A stretch of DNA of 33,384 bases from an uncultured Bacteroidales bacterium (GTDB taxonomy: Bacteria; Bacteroidota; Bacteroidia; Bacteroidales; F082). The notes beneath the pieces are model-generated. The model had not been told where the DNA came from. It did not search any database and saw only the letters and a list, made by a program, of their open reading frames with translations. The stretch covers positions 1-33,384 of the forward strand of contig CAMJHP010000032.1 of assembly GCA_946405575.1 (NCBI GenBank), written 5' to 3'. A program made the position numbers and the translations under genes. Shown piece by piece: positions 1 to 24,380 of the stretch (positions are counted from its first letter, which is position 1; each line of letters opens with the position of its first letter).

Positions 1-47
1 GCGGGTCTTTGCTTGACTGTATTTTTATCAAATTCATGACTATATTA

Positions 48-660
48 CGATTTATGTGTTTCTAAAGAGTAGCAATTACTATGAGTCTTCAACACCCACT
101 GCCGTCAATGCTACACGTAAGCATGACAAAGATAACCAGTAACTTCACCTTTGCCGATGCCAGCCAATGTGTTCGCCACTATGATGTCTTTTCTCTCGTT
201 CACGATGCAAAAGTAGTCAAATTCTTTTATTGAGGTGATGTTTTTGAGGGCTTTCAAGTCCGTTGAAGCTTAAAGATAGCAGTTGAGCCAGCCGCTGGCG
301 CGGTTTTTTTGCCCAGTAGATGCCTGAGCTGTGGGTAAGGCGCGACGGCCTTTCATGAGATTTTCTTAGAAGTAGAGGCTTCTCAAATACCATGTTGCCG
401 CCCCGGGCAAGTGTCGCAGCGGAGTAAGGGCTAAAAGAAAAATACATGAAGCCCGCGACCGCTGCGACTCTTGCCCAGGGCGATATAGAAGTAGAGGCAG
501 GCCGTCGCGCGGCGCTGGGCGGTGTTGCAGACAGGCAGAGTGTTCGCCCGCAGGAACGAGGACGAGCACCCTGCCTGTCTGCTTTACCGCACAGCTTTGG
601 GGAGGCAAAGTTAAAGCCCAAGCCTTGCAAAAACCGTGACAGCGGCGGCTTGGTCGGTAG
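48..660 (+). repeat. Dispersed structured repeat, copy A
   Basis: This copy matches copy B (1231-1253 joined to 2289-2877). The first 308 bp (48-355) are identical; the remainder is roughly 90 percent identical with one small indel. It contains, left to right: a leftward promoter-like box (208-215, reverse complement TACTTTTG) followed by a 30-codon GTG-start open frame on the minus strand (203 down to 111), then a long imperfect palindrome (340-510), a strong hairpin (519-590) and smaller hairpins to 652. The sequences flanking the two copies are unrelated, so this is a dispersed element rather than a simple tandem duplication. Open frames across the 3' half are not conserved (copy B acquires a stop), so I treat it as non-coding. 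Confidence 0.85.
340..652 (+). ncRNA. Candidate structured RNA in repeat copy A
   Basis: Outer stem gcgcgacggcct (340-351) pairs with 499-510. A 24-bp stem with few mismatches pairs 399-422 with 459-482, and a short inner helix closes an A-rich loop. A second hairpin pairs 519-523 with 586-590, 527-538 (gcagacaggcag) with 571-582, and 540-546 with 563-569, around a 16-nt loop (547-562) that is almost unchanged in copy B. Further short stems are 595-599/606-610 and 618-625/646-652. Compared with copy B, four base pairs in the second hairpin are changed on both sides so that pairing is kept, and the non-Watson-Crick pairs are G-U when read on the + strand (they would be A-C on the other), so the RNA is probably read rightward. 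No promoter for it is evident. I cannot assign it to a named RNA family. Confidence 0.55.
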
Positions 661-697
661 AATCTATTATCTATCTGTCTGTTCGATAAATTAGAAT

Positions 698-1087
698 TTA
701 CCTTTCATACAATTCTATCGGCAAGCCGTCAGGATCTTGAAAGAAGAGGAACCTTTTGCCTGTATACTCGTCTGTTCTCACCTCTTCATGCGAAATGCCC
801 AAGGCTTCTAACTCATGCACAGTCTCAGCTATGCTGTCGACCTCAAAAGCCAAGTGCCGCAGACCTGCAGCTTCAGGATGGGTCAACCGCGACGGTGGGG
901 AGGGGAACGAGAAAAGTTCAATGACATAGTCATCGCCCAAAGCGAGGTCAGTCTTGTACGACAGCCTTTCCTCACGATAGTGTTCAGCAAGGACACGCAT
1001 GCCGAGCACATGAGTATAGAAGTGGAGACTCCGCTGATAGTCGGAACTAATGATAGCGATGTGATGTACTTTGTTCAGGTGTAGCAT
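698..1087 (-). CDS. VOC family (glyoxalase-fold) protein, YaeR-like
   Basis: This 129-residue protein is full length for a small single-domain vicinal-oxygen-chelate protein and closely resembles the YaeR/GloA2-type group from memory of that family. The N-terminal VHHIAI motif, the mid-protein IELFSF and LRHLAFEV motifs and the C-terminal PDGLPIELYE motif supply the two His and two Glu positions expected to bind a divalent metal. The role in this group is a metal-dependent lyase or isomerase of unproven substrate, probably cytoplasmic. It lies alone between the two repeat copies and reads leftward. A leftward promoter-like box inside copy B would be the nearest upstream signal, now separated from the gene by the IS982 insertion. 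Confident on family, not on substrate. Confidence 0.9.
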   Translation of the reverse strand: MLHLNKVHHIAIISSDYQRSLHFYTHVLGMRVLAEHYREERLSYKTDLALGDDYVIELFSFPSPPSRLTHPEAAGLRHLAFEVDSIAETVHELEALGISHEEVRTDEYTGKRFLFFQDPDGLPIELYER

Positions 1088-1108
1088 GGCTTTATAAAGG
1101 GTCTTGTT

Positions 1109-1222
1109 CTATAAGTTCACTACGAGATGAGTGATGTTCTCACATAAGTTTTCGGCAATTCTCCAAGGTTCTTCTGCCTCCATTGGGAAGACCGTCGGTC
1201 GTGTTATGTATGATTCAATCAT
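1109..1222 (-). CDS. Possible 37-codon ORF or gene remnant upstream of the VOC gene
   Basis: An ATG at 1222 opens a 37-codon frame ending at 1109, 21 nt before the VOC start. The product begins MIESYITRPTVFPMEAEEPW and ends in HLVVNL. Composition is protein-like, but I recognise no family. Its start lies 8 bp from the left edge of repeat copy B, so it may be the tail of a gene cut by the repeat, or a leader peptide cotranscribed with the VOC gene. Low confidence. Confidence 0.25.
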   Translation of the reverse strand: MIESYITRPTVFPMEAEEPWRIAENLCENITHLVVNL

Positions 1223-1253
1223 ATAAATTCCGATTTATGTGTTTCTAAAGAGT

Positions 1254-2281
1254 ACCTGTTGGCGGAATTAATTTAGTGCATACTTAATTCTGCCAATGGG
1301 CTTGTCGTTAATGAAGTTTACGTATTGCAGAATGGTAAGTGCACTAATTTTGCCAATGATTCTGGCAAACAAACCATTCGTTATTTTTGCGTAGTTCCTG
1401 ATGACCAGGAACTGGTCTGTAAGTTGAGAGAATATTGTCTCAATCCTCTTTCTTGCCTTTGCAAACGGGATGAATGTCGGTTTCCAGTCCTTTTGGTTGA
1501 GCCGATACGGACACTCCAGTCTTATGTGTGCGGTTTCGAACAAGTCAAGCTGTACGTCAGCTCCAATATACCCTTTGTCACCATAGATGCTACAGTCGTG
1601 ATAAGTATGTTTTACATCCTTCATATAATGGAGGTCAGCCACACTTGCCTTTGACAGATCATAGGAATGGATAACTCCACTTAACCCACAGAGAGCGTGT
1701 AACTTATAACCAAAATAATACGTATTCTGCGAAGCACAGAAGCCGAAGTCGGGAGCTTGCGAGAAATTTCCGGTACGCCCCATCTTGCAACGTTTTCCTC
1801 TTGCAACCCTACAAACCTCTATCGGCTTGGAGTCAACAAAGAATTGTTCCTCTCCGCCATCCATTTCCATGGCAATCCTCTTGCGCAGTTCCTCACACAG
1901 GCCTGCCGTTTTCTTCCTGCGGTCATTGAACTGTCTCCTTGATATGAGATTGGGAATGTTGTCCTTGTATTCTTGCAATTTATAGTCGAACAACCACTTC
2001 TCACTATCAATGCTCTCGGTCTCTGCCGTCAAGGATAGCGCCACCACTTCCAAATCCGAAAACTTGGGAACAGGACCACGACGTGGAACATTACCCGATT
2101 CATTGACGAGATTTTCAGAGAATTGCTTGCATATCTCAAGTATTTTGACGAATTTTGTATAAAGGTTGTACATACGATGGTTTGAACTTAATGTTTTGAG
2201 CACCACTAAGTTACTAAAAATCAGCGATATGTACAACTTTTTACTCATATTTATCAACTTAAATTAATTCCGCCAACGGGT
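1254..2281 (-). mobile_element. Intact IS982-family insertion sequence
   Basis: The element is 1028 bp. Its ends are near-perfect inverted repeats: ACCTGTTGGCGGAATTAATT at the left and, reverse complemented, ACCCGTTGGCGGAATTAATT at the right. It is flanked by a 7-bp direct repeat AAAGAGT (1247-1253 and 2282-2288); because the ends share TA with the flank, the duplication could be read as 5 to 9 bp, all within the range reported for this family. One open transposase gene fills it. The insertion target is repeat copy B. Confidence 0.9.
1268..2173 (-). CDS. IS982-family DDE transposase
   Basis: The 301-residue product from the ATG at 2173 matches the usual length for IS982 transposases. An in-frame ATG at 2257 would add 28 residues, but the family-typical N-terminus begins MYNLYTKFVKILEI, so I prefer the inner start. 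Catalytic acidic residues are plausible in VDSKPIEVC (first Asp), YGDKGYIG (second Asp) and RIETIFSQL (Glu). The reading frame is uninterrupted and both terminal repeats are intact, so the element may still be active. It catalyses cut-and-paste transposition of the surrounding 1-kb element. Confidence 0.93.
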   Translation of the reverse strand: MYNLYTKFVKILEICKQFSENLVNESGNVPRRGPVPKFSDLEVVALSLTAETESIDSEKWLFDYKLQEYKDNIPNLISRRQFNDRRKKTAGLCEELRKRIAMEMDGGEEQFFVDSKPIEVCRVARGKRCKMGRTGNFSQAPDFGFCASQNTYYFGYKLHALCGLSGVIHSYDLSKASVADLHYMKDVKHTYHDCSIYGDKGYIGADVQLDLFETAHIRLECPYRLNQKDWKPTFIPFAKARKRIETIFSQLTDQFLVIRNYAKITNGLFARIIGKISALTILQYVNFINDKPIGRIKYALN

Positions 2282-2557
2282 AAAGAGTAGCAATTACTAT
2301 GAGTCTTCAACACCCACTGCCGTCAATGCTACACGTAAGCATGACAAAGATAACCAGTAACTTCACCTTTGCCGATGCCAGCCAATGTGTTCGCCACTAT
2401 GATGTCTTTTCTCTCGTTCACGATGCAAAAGTAGTCAAATTCTTTTATTGAGGTGATGTTTTTGAGGGCTTTCAAGTCCGTTGAAGCTTAAAGATAGCAG
2501 TTGAGCCAGCCGCTGGCGCGGTTTTTTTGCCCAGTAGATGCCTGAGCTGTGGGTAAG

Positions 2558-2873
2558 GCGCGACGGCCTTTCATTAGACTTTCTTAGAAGTAGAGGCTTA
2601 CCAAATACCATGTTGCCGCCCCGGGCATGTGTCGCAGCGGAGCAAGGGCTAAAAGAAAAATACATGATGCCCGCGACCGCTGCGACTCTTGCCCAGGGCG
2701 ATTTAGAAGTAGTGGCAGGCCGTCGCGCGGCGCTGGGCGGTGATGTCGACGAGCAGAGTGGTCTACCGCAGGAACGAGGACGGCCACCCTGCTCGGCGGC
2801 TTGACCGCACAGCTTTGGGGAGGCAAGGTAAGAGCTTTCCGCTGCAAAAACCGTGACAGCGGCGGCTTGGTCG
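2558..2873 (+). ncRNA. Candidate structured RNA in repeat copy B
   Basis: This is the counterpart of 340-652. Outer stem 2558-2569/2717-2728 is unchanged. In the second hairpin the outer stem 2737-2741/2804-2808 is kept, the middle stem is 2745-2756 (gtcgacgagcag) with 2789-2800 (one internal mismatch) and the inner stem is 2758-2763/2782-2787, with loop 2765-2780. Relative to copy A, A-U becomes C-G, A-U becomes G-C, G-C becomes A-U and U-G becomes G-C, all with both partners changed. A further hairpin ccgctg/cagcgg forms at 2839-2862. Confidence 0.5.
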
Positions 2874-2880
2874 GTAGAGG

Positions 2881-3525
2881 CTAATAATAAGAGCTATAGG
2901 ACGGATGGGACTTATAGTGATGGGTCGGTGCCCTCTTACGGGGTGCGGCTGCTGTTATTGGCCGCGGAGTGGAGTCCACAGGCGTTTTTGGGTGGGTGAC
3001 GGGCGACCGACTGCGGCAGGTGTGGCTTATTCTCATCATAAAGCTTTAAGGCGGTGGTAGAGCCAGCGACCTGACAACGGACTGAAAGCGGAGCGAGCAG
3101 ACGACGCTGGAGGTACGGAAGCGTCGTCTGCCCGACGGAGCGAAAGGTAGTCGTCAGGCCGCGGACCTTAGTAGAAGCTGAGGGAGTTCGTTAGCGTTGG
3201 CAACGCCCGTGAGCGACCGTAGCGGCGAATGGCAGCAGCAGGCCTTGTGCGGCTGACGGGACAAACACGATGTGGAGACCGCCGACGATGCCTGAAGGAC
3301 TGGGAAGGCAATGCTGGGCGCGTTAATGGAGCGGCGGAACACAGAGAGGCACGAACCGTGTTCCGACGCGGAATGATAGCGACCGTTGCACTGCCGCACA
3401 CAGTACAAGGGCTTCGACGGTGGGCGGAACACCTTGGCGGGGATGGGAAGGTGATGCTAAAAGATGCTTCTCTGTCGATGGAGCTTCAGAGATGGCGGGC
3501 AATGCGCCAAAAAACTACAATACTT
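2881..3525. other. GC-rich gene-free region with strong hairpins
   Basis: About 645 bp contain no convincing gene. The open frames here have Arg/Ala/Gly-rich compositions typical of shadow frames in GC-rich DNA, and overlap on both strands. Perfect or near-perfect stems are visible: a 12-bp stem gcagacgacgct (3097-3108) with 3120-3131, extended outward by cctgacaac/gtcgtcagg around 3069-3157; gcgtt-ggc-aacgc at 3194-3206; and an 8-bp stem cggaacac (3335-3342) with 3358-3365. Base composition is clearly richer in G+C than the genes on either side. It may be a large structured RNA continuing the copy B element, or decayed sequence; no promoter or terminator is obvious. Confidence 0.4.
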
Positions 3526-5130
3526 TTAAAGTTTATCTTTTAATCGTTGCACCATACGCTTTGAACGATTGGGAATCAATTCGTGGCAGAGGTTAATGCA
3601 TTGCTCTAATGCTTTGAAGTAGACTTTAGGTGGAGTATGGTCACATAACGAAAAATCTTCGGTGAAAGGTTCGGGATTGCCGTAGTAATCCATCAGCACC
3701 TCATCGAACAGCCAACGCTTCATCAACAAGTCCCAACCTTGTTGGCCGAAATAGGGTTCAAAGAATTTTTTTGAGCCTGATATGGTAGACATGATTGCCT
3801 TACTACCTTTGTTGGCAACCAATGCGTTTTGCAGATCGTTAAGCATGTGGTCAATAAGGAAACGGCCAAACACATTGCAGTTTCGGTAACCTGATAGATA
3901 CGATGGCTGTAGATATATGTTTCCAATGGTTTTGCAAAGGTCGGCGCAAGGTTTGATACGTTCAACCCATGGAGCTTTATCGCCATAAGGGATGCGTGAA
4001 AGCATGAAGAACCAATCACCGACCTGTGTACCCCACATTTTTTCTTGTATCACAGGCGATGGTCTAAGAATTAGATTACCATACTTTTTGTCAAACATCA
4101 CCTCTTTTGAGGCAATATCATTGAAGATTATGGTACAAATGGCACATACCAAATCGGTTTGGTAGATGCCATAAGAATAGCCGTGGGTATCGCCATAGCG
4201 TTTCATGCCTTCAAGTTGACGAAAGTCGTAATCAACGAGACGGTTGATGTCACCATCAAGTTTTTCTTCTATGAAATCTTTTACCAACTGGCGAGGTTCT
4301 TTGAATGGGTCTTCCAACTTTAGATAAAGTTTCCATCGTTCAATTGCTTTTCGCTCAGCTTGTGAAGGCTCGTTTAGTTTAGTCTTACGGTATTCACAAT
4401 GACCTTTCAGGCTGCGGTCGCGGAACGAGCGGGTAAACAGTCGGCCACAACCTTTGCCGCCTGGTTGAATACCACGAGTGTAGATACAGCCTTCGCATAC
4501 GGTGCCCTCCACTCCTTGCCACAGGTCAGGCAATTCTACGTCATACTCAATGCCGGCATGCTCACCGTAGAGCGCTTTCACATAGCCGAAATGACCTTCA
4601 CGAGCGATATAGAGATAATTATCATAATCTTCCATCCACTCAATCTTGTCATATTCCACTGGCAGCAACACTTCGCCACGGACATGAAGCAACCCTTTAA
4701 GATAGCGCGTTGGATTGGTTTTAGTCTTACGGATAGTGTTGCAGGCAATGATGTAGCCATTACGATAACCATATAGAGAACCGTAGGATTCTTTGAAGAC
4801 CATCTTTCCATCGCTCCACATCAGGTTCTCTTTACCGCCAGGAGTAACCTGTACCAAATAGAGTGATCCAGCCAAAAGCTTTATATACCAGTATTTGCAT
4901 TCACAAACCACATTACCCTGAATGTCTATCATTCCCCAACCACCTTCTTCAAGCTTATGGTCGTAGTAGAAGACAATGGCCACACCATTCATAAAGACAT
5001 CGATAGAGCGGTAATGCTTTTCTGTGCTTATGATAACATTATGCTCTTTGTCCATAATGCCCATGTAATAACCTTCTTCATAGGCGATATAGCCGTCTTC
5101 ACGTGGGCCTATTATGCGGTAGTCGGACAT
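3526..5130 (-). CDS. WG-repeat-like protein with Cys cluster and unknown C-terminal domain
   Basis: The product is 534 residues from the ATG at 5130. A TTG start at 5157 would add nine codons, but a -7 promoter box (TATCTTTG, 5155-5162 on the minus strand) overlaps it, so the inner ATG is preferred. Residues about 1-200 are beta-rich with WG-type repeat units (YYMGIMDKEHNVI, GWGMIDIQGNVV, GHFGYVKALYG). Residues C212, C215, C228 and C245 form a possible zinc-binding cluster. The C-terminal half (about 260-534) is helical and resembles a domain common in Bacteroidota hypothetical proteins (possibly DUF6994-like, unsure). No signal peptide is seen, so it should be cytoplasmic. It is the last gene of the leftward run that starts with the HIRAN gene. 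Function unknown. Confidence 0.75.
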   Translation of the reverse strand: MSDYRIIGPREDGYIAYEEGYYMGIMDKEHNVIISTEKHYRSIDVFMNGVAIVFYYDHKLEEGGWGMIDIQGNVVCECKYWYIKLLAGSLYLVQVTPGGKENLMWSDGKMVFKESYGSLYGYRNGYIIACNTIRKTKTNPTRYLKGLLHVRGEVLLPVEYDKIEWMEDYDNYLYIAREGHFGYVKALYGEHAGIEYDVELPDLWQGVEGTVCEGCIYTRGIQPGGKGCGRLFTRSFRDRSLKGHCEYRKTKLNEPSQAERKAIERWKLYLKLEDPFKEPRQLVKDFIEEKLDGDINRLVDYDFRQLEGMKRYGDTHGYSYGIYQTDLVCAICTIIFNDIASKEVMFDKKYGNLILRPSPVIQEKMWGTQVGDWFFMLSRIPYGDKAPWVERIKPCADLCKTIGNIYLQPSYLSGYRNCNVFGRFLIDHMLNDLQNALVANKGSKAIMSTISGSKKFFEPYFGQQGWDLLMKRWLFDEVLMDYYGNPEPFTEDFSLCDHTPPKVYFKALEQCINLCHELIPNRSKRMVQRLKDKL

Positions 5131-5154
5131 TTGTACGTGGTTTTTATTTGGCTC

Positions 5155-5162
5155 CAAAGATA
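5155..5162 (-). promoter_or_regulatory. Possible internal promoter for the WG-repeat gene
   Basis: The minus strand reads TATCTTTG, a full match to the Bacteroidota -7 consensus TAnnTTTG, 25 nt upstream of the ATG at 5130. The -33 region is weak. It suggests the last gene of the operon can be transcribed separately. Confidence 0.4.
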
Positions 5163-7647: not shown

Positions 7648-10554
7648 ATGGAGAAACTATACACCAAAGAAGGCCCGCAGGGAACGTTTACTTGCGAAGT
7701 AGATATTAGCAAGGATGAATGGCTTGAAATACTGAAAGACGAAGCGGTTCCTGAAAAGTATAAGGAGGCTGTGATTTGCTACTATTATATGCCAGAGAAT
7801 AAGGGAACATGCGTAGCAGTTCGTAATCGTTTGGGTAAGAACGCCAGTTCTCTTAATGCGTTGATTAGGAGTTTTGGAAGATCTGTACAGAACAGGCTTG
7901 CTCGTTTTCAGGTGTTCAATGAAGATGGCAGCAACACGTATTGGCCAATTCCTATGAAAACTGGCAAGAATGTGTCAAGTAAGGATGAGGGGGTGTTTGA
8001 ATGGACTTTGCGCCCTGAGTTGGTCGCAGCCATTAGAGAGTATCTGTATTGGTTTTTGATTGAACGATACAAAGAGTTGCGTAAAGAAATTCCTATTCGC
8101 GAAGAGAATTATGACGAGCTTTATAAATGGGAACTCATCACTTCCAGTAAAGGAAAGAATCCATATAACATCGTTGCTGATGGCGTTACGCATTCCAATA
8201 ATGCCACTAAAGGCGGGTTTATAAATCTGATTGATGTTGTAAGAGACAATAAGACGCTCAAATACCTGGTAAAAAGCGAAAAAGAAGAATTTGAAAAGAT
8301 ATTGAATGAATTGGCTGATGAAAGTCAACCGCTACATGATAGAATAGCGAAATTCAAAGTAGCGGTGCCAGGTTTACTTCCCCCGGATGGATATAATAGC
8401 AAGGCCAATGATGAGCGGACTGCGGCAACAATTCTTACGTGTTGCAATCCTGACAAGTACACTTTCTACAAATACGAAGGAATGTATGACAACCTTTGTA
8501 GATATTTGAGCGAAGAAAGAAAGCCTACGGGGTCGTGTTATGAGCATTATCTTGACATGATTCGTCCTTTGTCTGATTTGGCTAAGCAGGATGCGGAGCT
8601 TCAGAGCCTTGTTTCGCCCATGCTAGAAGGACAGCGGAAAAGCGACTTGCTGTTAGCTCAGGATATGGTTTGGATGCTGGTGTGTAAAATCCATGATAGA
8701 CTGGGCTATATCGGAGCATTGGCATGGAGTGAAAAAAGGCGCGTATGGCTTTGGAGTGGTGACAAAGAAACAGCCAATCAGACAATGCTGTGTTGCGGCT
8801 CGTCAGCAAAAACCATCAAAGACTTCAGGCCTTATAAGTCCAAAAACGCACTTTTGAAGGCTTATCAAGAAGATGTCGGTAATAAAGACACCAATATTCC
8901 CACTGCATACTGGAATTTCGTGCATGAAGCTAAGCCGGATGATATCGTGGTCGTGTTCAAATCAAAAACGGAGAATGGCAAGCGGTCCCATCTATTATTT
9001 GGCTGGGGCAAGTTCGCTTCTGATTGTCTTTTTGACGAATCTAAAGCAGACCCGATGTGCCGAAATATAGAATGGCATCTGCCATTTCTTGAAGCTCCTG
9101 TTGAGGATTATGCGATTGGGAACAGTCTTTTCTTCCATGGCACAACAGACAAACAAGCACAGCATATCATTGAATTATTGAATATCGAAAACGAAAACGC
9201 TTCTGAAACTATGAATACAAAACTACAACCTTACATCGATCTATTGATGTCGAACCGCAACCTTATCCTGACAGGTGCGCCAGGAACGGGCAAAACCTAT
9301 TTGGCTAAAGAGATTGCCAAAGTAATGAAAGCGGAAACCAAATTTGTCCAGTTCCATCCTTCCTACGACTATACTGATTTTGTGGAGGGGTTGAGGCCTA
9401 TTAAGGATGGAAATGGAAATGTAGGTTTTGAACGAAAAGATGGTGTGTTCAAGGAGTTTTGCAAACGAGCTGTTATTTCACGGTCAACCGACAAGGAGGT
9501 TTTTGGTGAACTGAACGACAATCCTACTGTCTGGAAGGTGTCATTGGAAGGGACTGGAGACAATCCTACCAGAAAAGATTGCATGAACAATGGATATATT
9601 CGAATCGGATGGAGCGGGTATGGAAACGTGGAAGACTTCAATGACTTTACAGAGTTTGAAGATGGGGGTAAAAATGTGCTTCGCGCGTTCCAATCATCTA
9701 TGCAAATCGGAGATATAGTTTTGTCCTGCTATTCAGCCAAAGAAATAGATGCTGTTGGAATAGTTACAGGTGACTACGAGTACCGGGAAGAAGGCGGTGA
9801 TTATCCAAGGTACAGAGCGGTGAAATGGTTGGTCAAAGGGATTAAGGAAAATATCGTTGACCTAAACAAAGGAAAGACCTTTACCCTTTCTACAGTTTAT
9901 CGCGCGAATATTTCAGCTGAAGAGGCGCTGGGTATTGTTAGGAAATACGATTCTGAACAAGTAAAGGTTGACAAACCTTTCGTCTTCATCATTGACGAAA
10001 TCAACCGAGGTGAAATATCAAAAATTTTCGGTGAGCTGTTCTATTCCATTGACCCTGGCTATAGGGGTGAAAAAGGCATGGTGCAAAGCCAATATCAGAA
10101 TCTCATCGAAGAGGGCGACATCTTCAAAAAAGGTTTCTATGTGCCAGAAAATGTCTATATCATCGGAACGATGAACGATATTGACCGCTCGGTGGAAAGC
10201 ATGGACTTTGCCATGCGCCGTAGGTTTACTTGGAAAGAAATCACGCCTGAGGACACCCAAACCATGCTCGACTCGCTGCCTTGTGCAGATGAGGCTAAGG
10301 CGGCCATGAAACGATTGAACGAAGTCATTGCTGGCACTGGCGGTTTGGGTGCTGCCTATAGCATAGGCCCGTCCTATTTCCTAAAGCTCGGAGAGAACGG
10401 AGGTGACTTCAAGAAGCTTTGGGAAATGAACATTGAACCATTGCTGAAAGAATATCTGCGAGGTTTCCGCAAGTCGAATGATATTCTTGACAAGTTCGCC
10501 AAGGCTTATTTTGATGTAAAAGAAGCAGCTGAAGAGTTGACAGATGAGAATTAA
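7648..10554 (+). CDS. mcrB: McrB-like AAA+ GTPase with two PUA/EVE-like reader domains
   Basis: The 968-residue protein is the motor and DNA-recognition subunit of a modification-dependent restriction complex. Walker A is GAPGTGKT at 543-550, Walker B is FVFIIDEIN around 778-786, and the McrB signature MNDIDRS starts at 842, followed by the arginine-rich FAMRRRF sensor. Residues about 375-500 form a PUA/EVE-like domain (WSEKRRVWLWSG, IPTAYWNF at 417-424, KPDDIVVVF, GWGKFASD). A second such domain (about 626-735: VWKVSLEGTGDNP, YIRIGWSGYGN, IGDIVLSCY, AVGIVTGDY, AVKWL) is inserted between Walker A and Walker B. The N-terminal 370 residues are mixed helix and strand without a family I can name. 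EVE/PUA folds read 5mC, 5hmC or related bases. It overlaps mcrC by 11 nt. Confidence 0.9.
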   Translation: MEKLYTKEGPQGTFTCEVDISKDEWLEILKDEAVPEKYKEAVICYYYMPENKGTCVAVRNRLGKNASSLNALIRSFGRSVQNRLARFQVFNEDGSNTYWPIPMKTGKNVSSKDEGVFEWTLRPELVAAIREYLYWFLIERYKELRKEIPIREENYDELYKWELITSSKGKNPYNIVADGVTHSNNATKGGFINLIDVVRDNKTLKYLVKSEKEEFEKILNELADESQPLHDRIAKFKVAVPGLLPPDGYNSKANDERTAATILTCCNPDKYTFYKYEGMYDNLCRYLSEERKPTGSCYEHYLDMIRPLSDLAKQDAELQSLVSPMLEGQRKSDLLLAQDMVWMLVCKIHDRLGYIGALAWSEKRRVWLWSGDKETANQTMLCCGSSAKTIKDFRPYKSKNALLKAYQEDVGNKDTNIPTAYWNFVHEAKPDDIVVVFKSKTENGKRSHLLFGWGKFASDCLFDESKADPMCRNIEWHLPFLEAPVEDYAIGNSLFFHGTTDKQAQHIIELLNIENENASETMNTKLQPYIDLLMSNRNLILTGAPGTGKTYLAKEIAKVMKAETKFVQFHPSYDYTDFVEGLRPIKDGNGNVGFERKDGVFKEFCKRAVISRSTDKEVFGELNDNPTVWKVSLEGTGDNPTRKDCMNNGYIRIGWSGYGNVEDFNDFTEFEDGGKNVLRAFQSSMQIGDIVLSCYSAKEIDAVGIVTGDYEYREEGGDYPRYRAVKWLVKGIKENIVDLNKGKTFTLSTVYRANISAEEALGIVRKYDSEQVKVDKPFVFIIDEINRGEISKIFGELFYSIDPGYRGEKGMVQSQYQNLIEEGDIFKKGFYVPENVYIIGTMNDIDRSVESMDFAMRRRFTWKEITPEDTQTMLDSLPCADEAKAAMKRLNEVIAGTGGLGAAYSIGPSYFLKLGENGGDFKKLWEMNIEPLLKEYLRGFRKSNDILDKFAKAYFDVKEAAEELTDEN

Positions 10555-11863
10555 CCTGACAGATAACAACAATTCTAACGAGGGTGCATTCACCAGAAAA
10601 GATGTGGCCGCCTTGTTTCCTATAGCGAAAAAGACGGTTGCGGAGCTGTGTAGGGAGAATGAAAACCTGCTCATCTTCCCATACAGCATAGATGAGTCTG
10701 ATGATAGAATTGGGGATACAACTGTTATGGAAATTGAGAGCACCAGTGACCCTGACAAAGTACACGTAAAAACTGGCAATGTGATGGGATTCATTGGCGT
10801 GGGCAATCTACAAATCAAGATAAAATCGAGATTCGATGTGGGAAGAGATGACTTCCTGCTTCACTATATGCTTCAGCGTGTGTTGTCGTTCAACCTGTTT
10901 GATCTCAACCATAACAACGAGCAGGAAGACGTGTTTGATTTTATCATGTTCATGTTTCCGTACTTCCTGAAAACAGCGATGCGCCAAGGCATTTACAGGG
11001 AGTACCAGAACTATAGGTATAATGATGCCCACTTGAAAGGAACCGTGGATGTTGGCAGGCACATTGCGAGAAACACACCTTTCGTTGGTGACTTCGCTTA
11101 TTCAACGCGAGAGTACAGTTATGACAATAATATGACTGAGCTCATCCGGCATACTATTGAGTATATGAAAACGAAAAAGTATGGCCAAGCAGTGTTGAAT
11201 ATTGACGGCGAGACAAAAGAGAACGTGGCGGCCATCATTGAGCACACACCGTTATACGACAAGAATGAGCGAAGCAGTATCATCAGCAAAAACCTGCGTT
11301 TAAGGATGCACCCATATTATACAGAGTACCGACCGTTGCAAACCCTGTGCTTGCAGATCTTACGGATGGAAGAAGTAAAGTACGGGGAAAGTGATGATGT
11401 GATTTGCGGCATCCTGTTCGATGGTGCCTGGTTGTGGGAAGAGTACGTCCATACCGTTCTTGACGGGCTGGGCTTTGTGCATGGAGAAAATAAGCTTCGC
11501 AAGAATGGTATTTATATTTACGAGGGACGAAGAGGAGTCAGATACCCGGATTTCTATAAAGACGATTTTGTGCTTGATGCTAAGTATAAGAGGTTGGGGA
11601 GCTATAAATCGGTAACAAAAGTTGACCCTAACGACCAAAATCAGGTTATTGTTTATGGGTCGGCAATTAAGGCGAAAAGAGGTGGTTTTGTGGCACCACT
11701 GATGCAGAAACAAACGGAGATACCTAAAGAGTATTTTAAAGAAAACCATTTCGAGCTTGCCATCTATGGTATAGAAATCTGCAAGTCGGCGAAGACGTAT
11801 GCAGATTTCTGTGACAGCATGAAGGAAATGGAGCTGGCATTTATTGAATCATTGAAGTTGTAA
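10544..11863 (+). CDS. mcrC: McrC-family nuclease subunit
   Basis: The 439-residue product has the McrC layout: an N-terminal beta-rich region that binds the McrB ring, a helical middle (LLHYMLQRVLSFNLFDL, MFMFPYFLKTAMRQGIYREY, then HLKGTVDVGRHI) and a C-terminal PD-(D/E)xK nuclease. The catalytic set is visible as YPDFY (D336) and VLDAKYK (D345, K347). McrC is recruited by McrB and cleaves DNA after translocation. The ATG lies inside the last codons of mcrB, which ensures coupled translation and supports them as partners. Length and motifs are complete, so I expect an active enzyme. Confidence 0.95.
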   Translation: MRINLTDNNNSNEGAFTRKDVAALFPIAKKTVAELCRENENLLIFPYSIDESDDRIGDTTVMEIESTSDPDKVHVKTGNVMGFIGVGNLQIKIKSRFDVGRDDFLLHYMLQRVLSFNLFDLNHNNEQEDVFDFIMFMFPYFLKTAMRQGIYREYQNYRYNDAHLKGTVDVGRHIARNTPFVGDFAYSTREYSYDNNMTELIRHTIEYMKTKKYGQAVLNIDGETKENVAAIIEHTPLYDKNERSSIISKNLRLRMHPYYTEYRPLQTLCLQILRMEEVKYGESDDVICGILFDGAWLWEEYVHTVLDGLGFVHGENKLRKNGIYIYEGRRGVRYPDFYKDDFVLDAKYKRLGSYKSVTKVDPNDQNQVIVYGSAIKAKRGGFVAPLMQKQTEIPKEYFKENHFELAIYGIEICKSAKTYADFCDSMKEMELAFIESLKL

Positions 11864-14496: not shown

Positions 14497-17301
14497 ATGA
14501 AAAACGAGAAACAACAAGCTGCTGCAGCGGCGGCGTTTGCCGAGCGGTGGAAGGGTCGCGGATATGAGCGCGGCGAGTCCCAGCTGTTTTGGGCCGACTT
14601 ATTAAGCAATGTGTATGGCGTGGAGGATTTGCCCTCCTTCATCCGCTATGAAGAGCAAGTGAGTAGCATGGTGGACTCCACCAACTTCATCGATGGCCAC
14701 ATTCCATCGACGAGGGTGCTGATTGAGCAGAAATCCATCAACAAGGATTTGAGGAAGGGCATCCCGCAAAGCGATGGCTCCGTGCTGAATCCTTTCCAGC
14801 AAGCGAAGAAATATGTGGCCAATATGCCGCTATCTCAACATCCGCGTTGGATTGTCACCTGCAATTTTTCCGAGTTCCTGGTCTATGACATGGAACAGCC
14901 TAATGGCGAGCCTGAGCAGATCCTGTTGGAGAACCTGGGCAAGGAGTATTACCGCTTACAGTTTCTCGTGGACTTGAAGAGTGAGCATATTTCCAAAGAG
15001 ATGCAGGTGTCGATGAAGGCCGGCGAGATTGTTGGCCGCATCTATGATGCGCTGCTGAAGCAGTATGACGACAATTCGCCTGAGGCCTTGCGTTGGCTGA
15101 ACATCCTGTGTGTGCGTATCGTGTTCTGCCTGTATGCCGAGGATGCCGGAGTGTTCAGGCATGACCAGTTCCACGACTTCCTTTCGCGTTACGATGCCGA
15201 TGATATACGGCGGGCATTGAGCGACCTCTTTGAGGTGCTCAACACGCCTTTGGAGAAACGCAGCAAGTACCTTAAGGAAGACCTGAAGGCTTTCCCCTAT
15301 ACCAACGGTGGACTGTTTGAAGAGGCGATTGAGATACCTCAATTCACCGAGGAACTGAAACAGACGCTTCTCCAGAACGCAAGCCTTGATTTCGACTGGA
15401 GCGAGATTTCGCCCACCATCTTCGGGGCTGTGTTTGAGAGCACATTGAACCCAGAAACAAGGCGCAGCGGGGGTATGCATTACACCTCGATAGAGAATAT
15501 CCATAAGGTGATTGACCCGCTCTTCCTGAACGACCTTCGTAGCGAGCTGGATGGGATATTGGAAGAGAAGGTGGAGAAGACGCGCCTGCGTCGTCTCGAT
15601 GAGTACCAGGACAAATTGGCTTCGCTGACCTTCCTCGACCCTGCCTGTGGCAGCGGCAACTTCCTGACCGAGACTTACCTGAGCTTGCGAAGGTTGGAGA
15701 ACGAGGCTATCCGTGAGCGGTATCATGGCCAGTACCAGATTGGGGCCTTCCTGGATCCTATTAAGGTGAGCATCCACCAGTTCTACGGCATCGAGATTAA
15801 TGACTTTGCTGTGACAGTGGCCACTACCGCGCTGTGGATTTCGGAAGCTCAGATGCTGACCAAGACGGAACAGATTGTGCAGCATGACATTGACTTTTTG
15901 CCGCTGAAGAGCTACGCGAATATCAAGGAGGGCAACGCGCTGCGGGTGGATTGGAACGATGTGGTACCAGCGGAAAAGCTGGATTATATCATGGGCAATC
16001 CGCCGTTTGTGGGATTTACATTTATGACTGCGGAACAGAAAGAAGATGTTGAAGTGCTTTATCCTGGCATTAAGAACATTGATTATGTGAGTTGTTGGTT
16101 CAAAAAGGCTTGTGAGTACACCAGAGGAACTGATGTTGAATGCGCTTTTGTTTCGACAAATAGTATTACCCAAGGTGAAACGGTTGGCCGAATGTGGGAA
16201 TCTTTAGATGTTCAAATCAATTTTGCCTGGCCAACATTCAGATGGGATAGCGAGGCAAGCGAGAAAGCCCACGTTCACTGTGTTATCATTGGTTTTTCAC
16301 ACAATGAGCGCAAACACAAGTATTTATACAATGATGGAGGACCTGTAGAATGTCACAATATAAATGCATATCTAGTCGATGCTCCAAGTATGATTGTCAG
16401 CAGCCGAAACAAGCCTTTGTGCAATGTTCCTGCGATGATTTATGGCAACAAGCCTGCTGATGGCGGTTGTCTGATTTTCACCAAAGAAGAAAAGGATGAA
16501 TTCCTCAAACGAGAGCCAAAAGCAAGGCGATGGATGCATACTCTTATCGGTGGAGCTGAGTTGATCAATAACAAACCATTGCTGAATGACAAACTGCGCT
16601 ATACATTATGGTTGGATGGGATTAGTCCAGATGAATTACGAAGAATGCCAGCCGTATTGGAACGCATTGCTGCATGTAAAGAAGCAAGGTTAAAGAGTCC
16701 AGCTGCAGCAATCAGGAAGTTTGCCGAAACGCCTCATTTATATGCTCAACGCACTCAGCCTAATATTCCTAAACTGGATGAGTATGGTGTGCCTCTTTAT
16801 GAAGATGGTGTGAAGCATTTTAATCTCTTAGTACCTGAAGTCTCGTCAGAAAGACGCAGATATGTGCCAATGGGTTATATTGCAAATGAAGTCGTAACAA
16901 ATAATCTTGTTAAGCTTATTCCAGATGCTTCCATATACCATTTTGGCATTTTGGTCTCTAATGTACACATGGCATGGATGCGTGCCGTGTGTGGAAGGCT
17001 GAAAAGTGACTATCGGTATTCCAAAGATGTTGTTTATAATAATTTCCCATGGCCATCGATAACAGATGCTCAAAAAGAAAGAATTGAAAAGACCGCTCAG
17101 GCCATTTTGGATGCCCGCTCATTATATCCTAAAGCTTCTTTGGCTGACCTTTATGATGAACTAACAATGCCAATGGAACTTCGCCGCGCTCATCAGGAGA
17201 ACGATAGGGCGGTGATGGCAGCGTATGGTTTCGACTTGAAGATGACGGAGAGCCAATGCGTGGCGGAGCTGTTTAAGCTGTATCAGGGGATGGTGAAGTG
17301 A
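14497..17301 (+). CDS. MmeI-like type IIL restriction-modification enzyme
   Basis: The 934-residue single chain has all parts of the MmeI family: an N-terminal nuclease with D66 and EQK at 77-79 (RVLIEQKS), a helical spacer, an adenine-N6 methyltransferase with motif I LDPACGSGNFL (380-390) and motif IV NPPF (501-504), a target-recognition region (about 600-800) and a helical C-terminus. It both methylates one strand of an asymmetric site and cuts some 20 bp away (family knowledge). No separate specificity gene is needed. The start is chosen for its N-terminal fit and nearby promoter. The stretch from about 16010 to 17165, covering the recognition domain, is visibly more AT-rich than the nuclease/methyltransferase part and the last 130 bp, suggesting a mosaic gene. 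Confidence 0.93.
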   Translation: MKNEKQQAAAAAAFAERWKGRGYERGESQLFWADLLSNVYGVEDLPSFIRYEEQVSSMVDSTNFIDGHIPSTRVLIEQKSINKDLRKGIPQSDGSVLNPFQQAKKYVANMPLSQHPRWIVTCNFSEFLVYDMEQPNGEPEQILLENLGKEYYRLQFLVDLKSEHISKEMQVSMKAGEIVGRIYDALLKQYDDNSPEALRWLNILCVRIVFCLYAEDAGVFRHDQFHDFLSRYDADDIRRALSDLFEVLNTPLEKRSKYLKEDLKAFPYTNGGLFEEAIEIPQFTEELKQTLLQNASLDFDWSEISPTIFGAVFESTLNPETRRSGGMHYTSIENIHKVIDPLFLNDLRSELDGILEEKVEKTRLRRLDEYQDKLASLTFLDPACGSGNFLTETYLSLRRLENEAIRERYHGQYQIGAFLDPIKVSIHQFYGIEINDFAVTVATTALWISEAQMLTKTEQIVQHDIDFLPLKSYANIKEGNALRVDWNDVVPAEKLDYIMGNPPFVGFTFMTAEQKEDVEVLYPGIKNIDYVSCWFKKACEYTRGTDVECAFVSTNSITQGETVGRMWESLDVQINFAWPTFRWDSEASEKAHVHCVIIGFSHNERKHKYLYNDGGPVECHNINAYLVDAPSMIVSSRNKPLCNVPAMIYGNKPADGGCLIFTKEEKDEFLKREPKARRWMHTLIGGAELINNKPLLNDKLRYTLWLDGISPDELRRMPAVLERIAACKEARLKSPAAAIRKFAETPHLYAQRTQPNIPKLDEYGVPLYEDGVKHFNLLVPEVSSERRRYVPMGYIANEVVTNNLVKLIPDASIYHFGILVSNVHMAWMRAVCGRLKSDYRYSKDVVYNNFPWPSITDAQKERIEKTAQAILDARSLYPKASLADLYDELTMPMELRRAHQENDRAVMAAYGFDLKMTESQCVAELFKLYQGMVK

Positions 17302-22970: not shown

Positions 22971-24380
22971 TCATTCTTCGTCTTCGTCAATCTCTGGATC
23001 GATGAAGAGGAGGTTGTTTACCTTCAATCGCTTCTTTGGGCTGATGGTGCCTTGATAGCCTCGGAGGACGTTCTTGGAATCGACGTGGCCGACCATGGAG
23101 TCGATGAAGGCATCGGAGATGCCATGCCAGGTTAGCGTGGTGATGTAAGAATTACGAGCGGTGGAAGCGGTGACGGGACGGATGCCGAGCTTTTCACAAA
23201 CGCCTTTCATGCCTTTGCGGATTTGGCGGTTGAAGTCGTGGGTGCGGCTTTCCATTTCCGGCTCATACTTGGCATCACGGAGGATCTGCGGGAATACGAG
23301 CTTGCCTTTCACGGGCTTGCTGGCGTATTTGCCGAGCAGCTTCTCCAATGGTTCCGTGACGGGAATACGGACGGTTACCTTCACCTTGTCGGCTATCTTG
23401 CCACGGATGTAGGACAACTCCTTATTATAGAAGTAGTCGTCGTTCCATACGAGGGTGGACAGGTCTTTCAGATTGCTGCCGTTGCAGAGATAGAGGATGA
23501 GCCACCAGTCGGCGGCTTTTCTCCCGGGGCCTTTATAATCGCGAATCTTCACGATGTCGGTGACTGGGATGTAGTCCTCTTTGCGACGGGTGCCTTGCTT
23601 GATGGAGAACTTGGGCACCTCGCCGATGATCTTCTTTTCGCCCAGGCTGTTCATGACGGCACGGAGGGCGCGAAGATAGATGCTCTTGGTGGAGTCGGAC
23701 AGGCCGGCCTCATCCATCGAAGCCGTCCATTGCTTGATGACGTTCTCGTCAACGAAAGACGGGGGGACCTTGGATTTCTTGCCTTTGACGACAAGCGTTT
23801 TCTCCTTGGTGCGTTTCTTGGTGAGGCTTGTGATGGAACAGCCAAGGAAACGATAGAAGCTCTTGAGGGCTGTGCTGTACTGAAGGCGGGTCTTCTCGGT
23901 GTTCTTGCTCTCGCCAAACTGGATCCAGTATTCGAGGAGCGTGGGGGCTTCCGGTGTCTTGGTCTCAGGGTTGGCGATGGCCTTTTTGAGATTCTCAAAG
24001 GTGAATTTCTTCTCGACATTGAGAGCGACGACGGCATCATAGATTTTGGTGAAGGCCTTCGTGACTTGGCTTTTGGCCTTGTGGAGGGGTGAAGAGCCGT
24101 TTTTGAGGGTGAAGATTTTGGCGTAGTCGTCGTCGGAAACGCAGACTCCAGTTGCGTGGAGCCACTTTTCGCCTTGGTAGGTTACACGGATGTAAATGGG
24201 GTAAGTACCGTCCTTTTTTTGGCGCCTGATATCTAGGAAAGCGCGGAGGTAAACTTGCTCCGAAGCGTTTTTGAGCATCGGCTCATAGGCAGAGGGGTTA
24301 ATTTTCATTTTTCTAACAATTTGGTTATCTATGCGTTGCTTTGTATTTTTTGCCCATGGGATGGGTTGAAATTTGCCCAT
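22971..24380 (-). CDS. Tyrosine recombinase / site-specific integrase
   Basis: The 469-residue protein has an N-terminal arm-binding domain (VYLRAFLDIRRQKKDGTYPI), a SAM-like core-binding domain (about 150-290) and a C-terminal catalytic domain. The RxxR-box Arg is R409 in TARNSYITTL, the second histidine position is in MVGHVD, and the nucleophile is Y442 in LRGYQGTI. The first catalytic Arg position is replaced in LCNGSNLKDLSTL, as in many Bacteroidota integrases of this group. It should integrate and excise the island at tRNA-Pro, whose 3' half lies 127 bp upstream of the start. An inner ATG at 24308 is an alternative start. Confidence 0.92.
   Translation of the reverse strand: MGKFQPIPWAKNTKQRIDNQIVRKMKINPSAYEPMLKNASEQVYLRAFLDIRRQKKDGTYPIYIRVTYQGEKWLHATGVCVSDDDYAKIFTLKNGSSPLHKAKSQVTKAFTKIYDAVVALNVEKKFTFENLKKAIANPETKTPEAPTLLEYWIQFGESKNTEKTRLQYSTALKSFYRFLGCSITSLTKKRTKEKTLVVKGKKSKVPPSFVDENVIKQWTASMDEAGLSDSTKSIYLRALRAVMNSLGEKKIIGEVPKFSIKQGTRRKEDYIPVTDIVKIRDYKGPGRKAADWWLILYLCNGSNLKDLSTLVWNDDYFYNKELSYIRGKIADKVKVTVRIPVTEPLEKLLGKYASKPVKGKLVFPQILRDAKYEPEMESRTHDFNRQIRKGMKGVCEKLGIRPVTASTARNSYITTLTWHGISDAFIDSMVGHVDSKNVLRGYQGTISPKKRLKVNNLLFIDPEIDEDEE

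Follow-up and report, generated by a model that had tools for sequence, protein, structure and literature searches.

Why should a repeat keep its fold when the sequence of its stem changes, and what is the element to which such a repeat belongs? These questions are raised by a stretch of 33,384 nucleotides (nt), hereafter the window, which is the entire contig CAMJHP010000032.1 (G000:C32) of an uncultured Bacteroidales bacterium (assembly GCA_946405575.1) and whose start lies close to the repeat. The two copies of the repeat, A (63-669) and B (2281-2886), are 94% identical, and a preliminary description of this DNA had reported in each of them a hairpin, at 519-590 and 2737-2808, respectively, with paired changes that pointed to selection on an RNA read rightward. 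We found this hairpin to be part of long non-coding elements that form a family of three modules, X (~650 nt), U (~365 nt) and C (~575 nt), arranged in the order X-U-C. In the reading that we prefer, with a probability somewhat below one half (about 0.48), the family is limited to one genus, keeps its fold, stands between interchangeable genes, always in the same direction, and likely provides the recombination points at which these genes are swapped; an anti-phage role is predicted for about half of the genes.

Paired changes in modules U, C and X

Both hairpins lie at the positions given above and fold as they had been drawn. Folded alone, hairpin A reaches −50.5 kcal/mol (z −8.5) and hairpin B −41.0 kcal/mol (z −4.6), values equalled in neither case by any of 200 shuffles. 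The four double changes between A and B are present as described (A-U to C-G at alignment columns 16/68, A-U to G-C at 20/64, G-C to A-U at 21/63, U-G to G-C at 30/53), and the wobble pairs 543/566 of A, 2746/2799 and 2762/2783 of B are indeed G-U on the + strand; three pairs kept in A (columns 11/73, 18/66 and 33/50) are lost in B. To extend the comparison, homologous copies were collected in an alignment (A2) of 23 distinct hairpin regions, after removal of two exact duplicates and of five copies that were truncated or survived only as remnants. Here 91.5% of 733 cells are paired, falling to 26-47% when the partner is slid by 1-3 columns, and double changes occur at 10 of the 32 pairs, in 39 cells. 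On every measure, all 500 shuffles stay below the observed value; since the rows are related, these counts give too high a number of events. At pair 32/51, 7 of the 23 copies have C-A on the + strand, which speaks against a firm inference of the strand. The tip loop, already described as nearly unchanged between A and B, is identical in 21/23. Thus, the conserved secondary structure that had been proposed is supported by this larger set, and it extends to a second hairpin of U, to X and, more weakly, to C.

The hairpin sits inside module U, which is closed by a long stem: all 27 U copies chosen as long enough start with AGCC[AG]CTGGCG, end with CAGCGGCGGC and have complementary heads and tails. 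The second hairpin of U was compared in 22 of the 27 copies (14 distinct), leaving out L040a, L040b, L047, L048a and L051a, in which an arm was missing or not recognised. It is 84% paired, against a mean of 73% after shuffling of whole arms (0/1000 shuffles as high), and contains 24 double-change cells. At its tip GCAGCGG/CCGCTGC is replaced by GTTTTTC/GAAAAAC with the pairing retained; as cut for the comparison, the tip pairs poorly in five copies (L042b, L043, L046a, L049 and L184).

Module C usually comes after the last U. Its 18 aligned copies (A3) show double changes at 9 of 103 pairs, in 42 cells, a cell count matched by 0/500 shuffles; the number of double-change pairs is reached by 9/500 shuffles and that of pair types by 499/500, so that the evidence is weaker for C than for U. 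Module X adjoins U on the left and is closed by GGGGGAAA/TTTCCCCC. In 14 copies of it, 15 of 158 pairs change on both sides (52 cells, 0/500 shuffles), with a number of pair types that is not unusual (160/500). Sliding the partners across the hairpin, C and X alignments lowered the pairing to 26-54%, a comparison in which C and X have an advantage because their structures were predicted from the same alignments.

A protein-coding reading of the repeat was rejected because of indel lengths and the absence of codon periodicity. In fact, indels divisible by three are 7/134 in U, 15/232 in C and 9/117 in X, so that the reading frame is broken, and the variable sites show no codon periodicity; some module copies contain long stop-free frames.

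The paired changes could also be read without any selection on the fold, if the modules were no more than GC-rich repeats of the intergenic DNA, at a hotspot prone to assembly problems, and the double changes came from two old sequence types mixed by recombination. Two main types do carry many of the double changes, and both the start of the window contig near the repeat and the ends of several other contigs within elements are in keeping with such a hotspot. By contrast, more than two pair types are seen at several pairs, with five at columns 16/68 of A2 and three each at columns 566/611 and 567/610 of X; moreover, the replaced stem tips still pair, and pairing drops in the slid controls. This explanation is disfavoured, and we consider it very unlikely.

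One orientation, interchangeable cargo and a proposed recombination

To describe how the elements are placed, 44 sequences were scanned by blastn (E 1e-4), dropping any hit of which a stronger one covered more than half and merging same-strand hits at most 250 nt apart. Two or more separate elements were present in 25 loci (on 23 contigs); they lay on a single strand in 25/25, with 0 flips in 30 neighbour pairs. Compact C elements also recur between genes, on one strand, in G032:C20, G038:C121 and G065:C138, and in the first of these contigs McrBC, UvrD, HsdR and kinase genes stand between them. A gene of ~150 amino acids (MVDIEKVKQWAVSRWTLG...) occurs in three compact-C arrays (L270 6760-7203, L308 9314-9781 and L313 9407-9847), and the one copy scanned had no Pfam match.

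This orientation bears on the possibility that the modules behave as non-autonomous mobile repeats, moved by functions supplied in trans, in which the stems would be terminal or internal inverted repeats and the paired changes would come from copying between the arms. The complementary ends of U and X, the tandem U copies present in several loci and the solitary tails of U and C found elsewhere in the genomes are all compatible with it. Free insertion should, however, yield elements in either direction; moreover, the left side is common to many copies, and conservation includes the tip loop, not the stem alone. In our view, mobile repeats are quite improbable. As for the solitary tails, those of C in L187, L190 and L191 have the appearance of longer copies that have decayed, and for this reason they were not used and 5'-truncated retro-copies were rejected as an explanation. 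Solitary U tails outside a full U were seen in L020, L021, L022 and L052, the last three preceded by a common, different upstream sequence, GGTGATTTGTGGGTGAAGT or near it; there may thus be another type of module.

The genes beside the elements vary from locus to locus. They are located between X and U, after U (the VOC gene of the window; L047; L052) or after C, and to the right of C the sequence diverges abruptly between loci. L033, L034 and L044 are 90-94% identical through the end of C, and then continue with Zorya-type genes in L033 and with another operon in L034 and L044. Compared with genome G004, the window has cargo of 98.7-99.3% identity, C of 95% and U of 87-88%, and G004 carries two additional genes beside C. 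Moreover, the same cargo can change module: a DUF6577/AbiEii cargo adjoins C in G067 and X in G064, and the two versions of it share 92.5% identity over 6.6 kb. It is 99-100% identical in the 700 nt beside the joint, and divergence sets in at the tail of the element, where X and C share GGAACACC, a sequence contained in both modules. A second deletion-like joint with the same tail is found in L035, in which C is cut down from ACGGGGTGCGG to AACACC; both deletion-like joints adjoin GGAACACC.

The adjoining cargo was checked by Pfam or PADLOC in 15 loci (the window, L033, L034, L035, L037, L040, L041, L043, L045-L049, L051 and L052). Recognised defence or toxin-antitoxin genes were present in seven: Zorya (L033), YhcG/PDC-S02 (L037), DUF6577/AbiEii (L040), AAA_23/PbeC-like with a helicase (L043), GmrSD with Type ISP (L045), AbiE (L046) and a defence reverse transcriptase, UG39 (L048). 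The last gene lies right of C at 8721-10535 (PADLOC RT_UG39, E 1.8e-178), with an SMC-like ATPase gene nearby; it is the only reverse transcriptase found right of C among the checked cargos, and a retron or reverse-transcriptase partner for the elements was rejected.

On the left, a common platform can be recognised. DUF6266 genes occur in 10 of the 20 loci L033-L052 (L033, L034, L037-L039, L041-L044 and L050), five of them with an M15 peptidase gene, which in several loci lies upstream of the elements and in the same direction; in the remaining loci the contig or stretch stops before the platform or the left side differs. DUF6266 was also found on the contig of L035 (L241). Three genomes have two M15/DUF6266 platform copies each (G004:C82/C90, G084:C13/C1 and G081:C43/C66), and in G004 and G084 both copies are interrupted within X, where the contig ends.

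A tyrosine recombinase with a common N-terminal motif is encoded in L039, L231, L232, L236, L241 and L308 (Pfam was run on four of these). On the right side of the cargo, G037 encodes a Phage_integrase protein (L273), and the window does likewise. One recombinase common to all loci was not found, and L274:13710-15386 had no Pfam match.

Recombination at the elements is the explanation that best ties together the fold, the non-coding nature, the position at gene boundaries and the single direction. Like-oriented copies would recombine, either homologously or aided by the island tyrosine recombinase, and would thereby move the cargo; recognition could act on the folded strand, in the form of either single-stranded DNA or RNA, and the outcome would be an exchange of defence genes. 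In the study of phages and bacteria, it is an open question by what route defence genes enter fixed chromosomal sites and are exchanged there; if this reading is true, long folded elements at the joints between such genes would offer a handle on it.

Several observations weigh on the other side. In 8 of the 15 checked loci the cargo was not recognised, or not clearly, as defence or toxin-antitoxin genes. The recombinase motif is not constant, being present in 6 of 45 loci scanned, some of them too short to reach it, and it was not found in the sequence examined to the left of the element in G037 and G054. The 25 loci with at least two elements are not independent, since many of them share one left side, and several double changes track the two main sequence types, so that the events are fewer than the cells. 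Most site-specific recombinases have a single crossover base; the junctions after C and U, examined by eye, are ragged over ~15 nt or more, and a precise site-specific junction was not seen. No excised circle or empty site came to light, although no systematic search for them was made. Finally, a loose homologous recombination would need no fold.

Strand, distribution and known systems

The strand from which the elements might act bears on a different explanation, namely that X-U-C is a new large and ornate non-coding RNA, transcribed rightward from the platform and acting as a folded RNA somewhat as proposed for GOLLD or ROOL, the cargo being the variable side of the island. The paired changes in three modules, the closing end stem that X and U each possess, the conserved tip loop and the M15 gene upstream in the same direction argue in its favour. 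Consensus folding by RNAalifold favours the + strand for U (−69.5 on + and −57.3 on −) and for C (−98.4 and −81.1), but not for X (−193.4 and −200.4). Mean z-scores, obtained from 8 sequences per module with 20 shuffles each, are instead a little more negative on the − strand for each of the three modules (+/−: U −6.7/−8.1, C −3.3/−4.0, X −2.4/−2.7). Among pairs predicted on both strands, G-U against A-C counts are 5:2 in A2, 6:3 in U, 3:3 in C and 4:3 in X. The Bacteroidetes-type promoter motif TAnnTTTG was absent before 14/14 U copies tested and was present before X in 3/13, ~680-750 nt upstream, in related loci.

With a strand signal that is weak or absent and no promoter motif before the U copies tested, selection on an RNA read rightward is not established. 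A rightward RNA is possible, and the role may be that of an RNA or of single-stranded DNA; same-strand elements bounding swappable cargo fit a role as DNA at least as well.

With respect to known RNAs, the preliminary description could assign no family, and this was borne out: at the gathering score Rfam gave 0 matches in the window, and in seven related loci tRNA only. A permissive scan of positions 1-3600 returned four microRNA models, far below their cut-offs, and compact C gave one match, with E 4.1; such low-scoring microRNA and long non-coding RNA matches were rejected as chance. The likeness to GOLLD and ROOL consists in an elaborate conserved fold over hundreds of nt with unknown function. 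According to PMC12286853, ROOL env-120 comes from cow rumen and GOLLD/ROOL are often found near tRNAs; in L033, a tRNA is located 3.6 kb to the left of X, but tRNAs were found in only 2 of 7 loci scanned. Unlike GOLLD and ROOL, the elements described here have no Rfam match and no phage match (0 among 50,697 phage records), and they are modular, repeated and bound variable cargo; compact C copies repeated between unrelated genes would be odd for a single RNA gene. Taken together, we judge a large RNA rather unlikely, though possible; if the elements do make RNA, they would represent a new large, multi-module family of structured RNAs in a lineage of the ruminant gut.

The alternative of gene capture through recombination invites comparison with integrons. 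Integron attC sites are ~60-150 nt long. As in integrons, the exchangeable cargo is set apart by folded non-coding elements that share one orientation, and some islands encode a tyrosine recombinase; the likeness to an integron array lies in orientation and placement only, as the recombination of the elements is inferred. The elements are longer (365-650 nt), the junctions are ragged rather than set at one crossover base, and the cargo genes run in both directions. Moreover, the TIGR02249 (IntI) model, run on three recombinases, gave no match at E 0.001 for L236:5594-7096 and L308:13753-15240, and 19.9 bits, against a cut-off of 265, for the recombinase of the window (22971-24380). By the integrase model, the system is not an integron. 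An integron-like gene-capture system built from other parts, with kilobase-scale folded X/U/C sites in one orientation, a non-integron tyrosine recombinase and a stock of anti-phage genes in rumen Candidatus Alcium and relatives, appears unlikely to us as a full description. Defence-island hotspots such as the cargo regions of Tn7-like transposons (PMC8649781) likewise combine a shared flank with variable defence cargo; here, the boundary is instead a long folded non-coding element that is repeated within the island.

Among the genomes searched, all members of the family came from a single genus of ruminant-gut bacteria. The query 290-680 matched 20 of 99 genomes of the genus, and X was found in 25/99 (E 0.001), in several as short pieces only. 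A probe for C, run on 173 genomes from 16 genera of the family, matched 24, every one of them in a single genus, and a covariance model (R1), used order-wide with stricter filters, matched 2/393 genomes, both of this genus, one of 206 genera. Compact C had 0 matches in 295 genomes; few of these belonged to the genus, and the source genome was not among them. The named Bacteroidales matches include metagenome-assembled genomes labelled yak abomasum and water buffalo caecum. A phage or plasmid origin was rejected, as no blastn match was obtained in a search that included the phage records mentioned above. A single IMG/VR match of an 18-base pattern (L167) was regarded as chance, as it falls in a high-GC stretch with open reading frames that look phage-tail-like by eye; the same pattern has many matches outside Bacteroidales in contig searches, also taken as chance. 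Titles and opening lines of abstracts in the open-access literature, a set that mostly leaves out subscription papers, contained no description of such elements.

Features of the window and minor observations

The features are listed in Table 1. The IS982 element accounts for part of the spacing between A and B and is not a member of the element family; in G072:C13 the same junction is present without it.

Table 1. Coordinates of the modules, hairpins and neighbouring genes (window positions unless a locus is named).
Feature	Position	Strand	Evidence or remark
Left flank of repeat copy A, common to copy B	48..289	+	63-362 and 2281-2580 99% identical; shared part starts near CGATTTATGTGTTTC
Module U, copy A	290..653	+	Head AGCCGCTGGCGCGGTTTTTTTGC complementary to tail GCAAAAACCGTGACAGCGGCGGC (closing stem); fold of 290-680, z −9.5
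Second hairpin, U copy A	405..476	+	Arms compared, 22/27 copies, 14 distinct
Hairpin A with outer GCTG/CAGC pairs	514..595	+	Fold, alignment, paired changes
YaeR-type VOC (glyoxalase-like) gene between two U copies	698..1087	-	PF00903, E 9.5e-27; NF050075, 192 bits (cut-off 140)
IS982-family insertion in left flank of copy B	1255..2280	-	NF033520, 249 bits (cut-off 130); 9-bp duplication TAAAGAGTA at 1246-1254 and 2281-2289
Module U, copy B	2508..2870	+	Both module ends checked
Second hairpin, U copy B	2623..2694	+	Same arm comparison
Hairpin B with outer GCTG/CAGC pairs	2732..2813	+	Fold, alignment, paired changes
Module C	2938..3508	+	Ends ...GGTGATGCTAAAAGATGCTTC...CAATGCGCC; abrupt right boundary; 18-row alignment A3 of first ~505 nt
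First gene right of C, 3' end towards C	3526..5157	-	Weak WG-repeat match below Pfam cut-off; L049 (G004) has a nearly identical gene
McrB-like and McrC genes of the island	7648..11863	+	AAA_5, E 1.4e-18; McrBC PF10117, E 1.7e-48
MmeI-type restriction-modification gene	14497..17301	+	PF20473, E 4.5e-84, and four more MmeI domains
Tyrosine recombinase (phage integrase family), right part of island	22971..24380	-	PF00589, E 1.6e-6
75-nt G-rich array	L033 5550-5915; L228 4192-4692; L229 423-1026; L235 624-1090		TRF, four loci

The end of U (GGTAGAGGCTAA, window 626-669) resembles by eye that of C (GGTGATGCTAAA, window 3430-3508). Left of X there is, in the four loci of Table 1, a tandem array of ~75-nt G-rich repeats (GGGTGGTTGGTGGGG...), in ~5-7 copies and G-quadruplex-like by eye; Tandem Repeats Finder (TRF) did not find it in L042. 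In L239, a gene for an IS110-family transposase (3335-4378) lies between pieces of this array.

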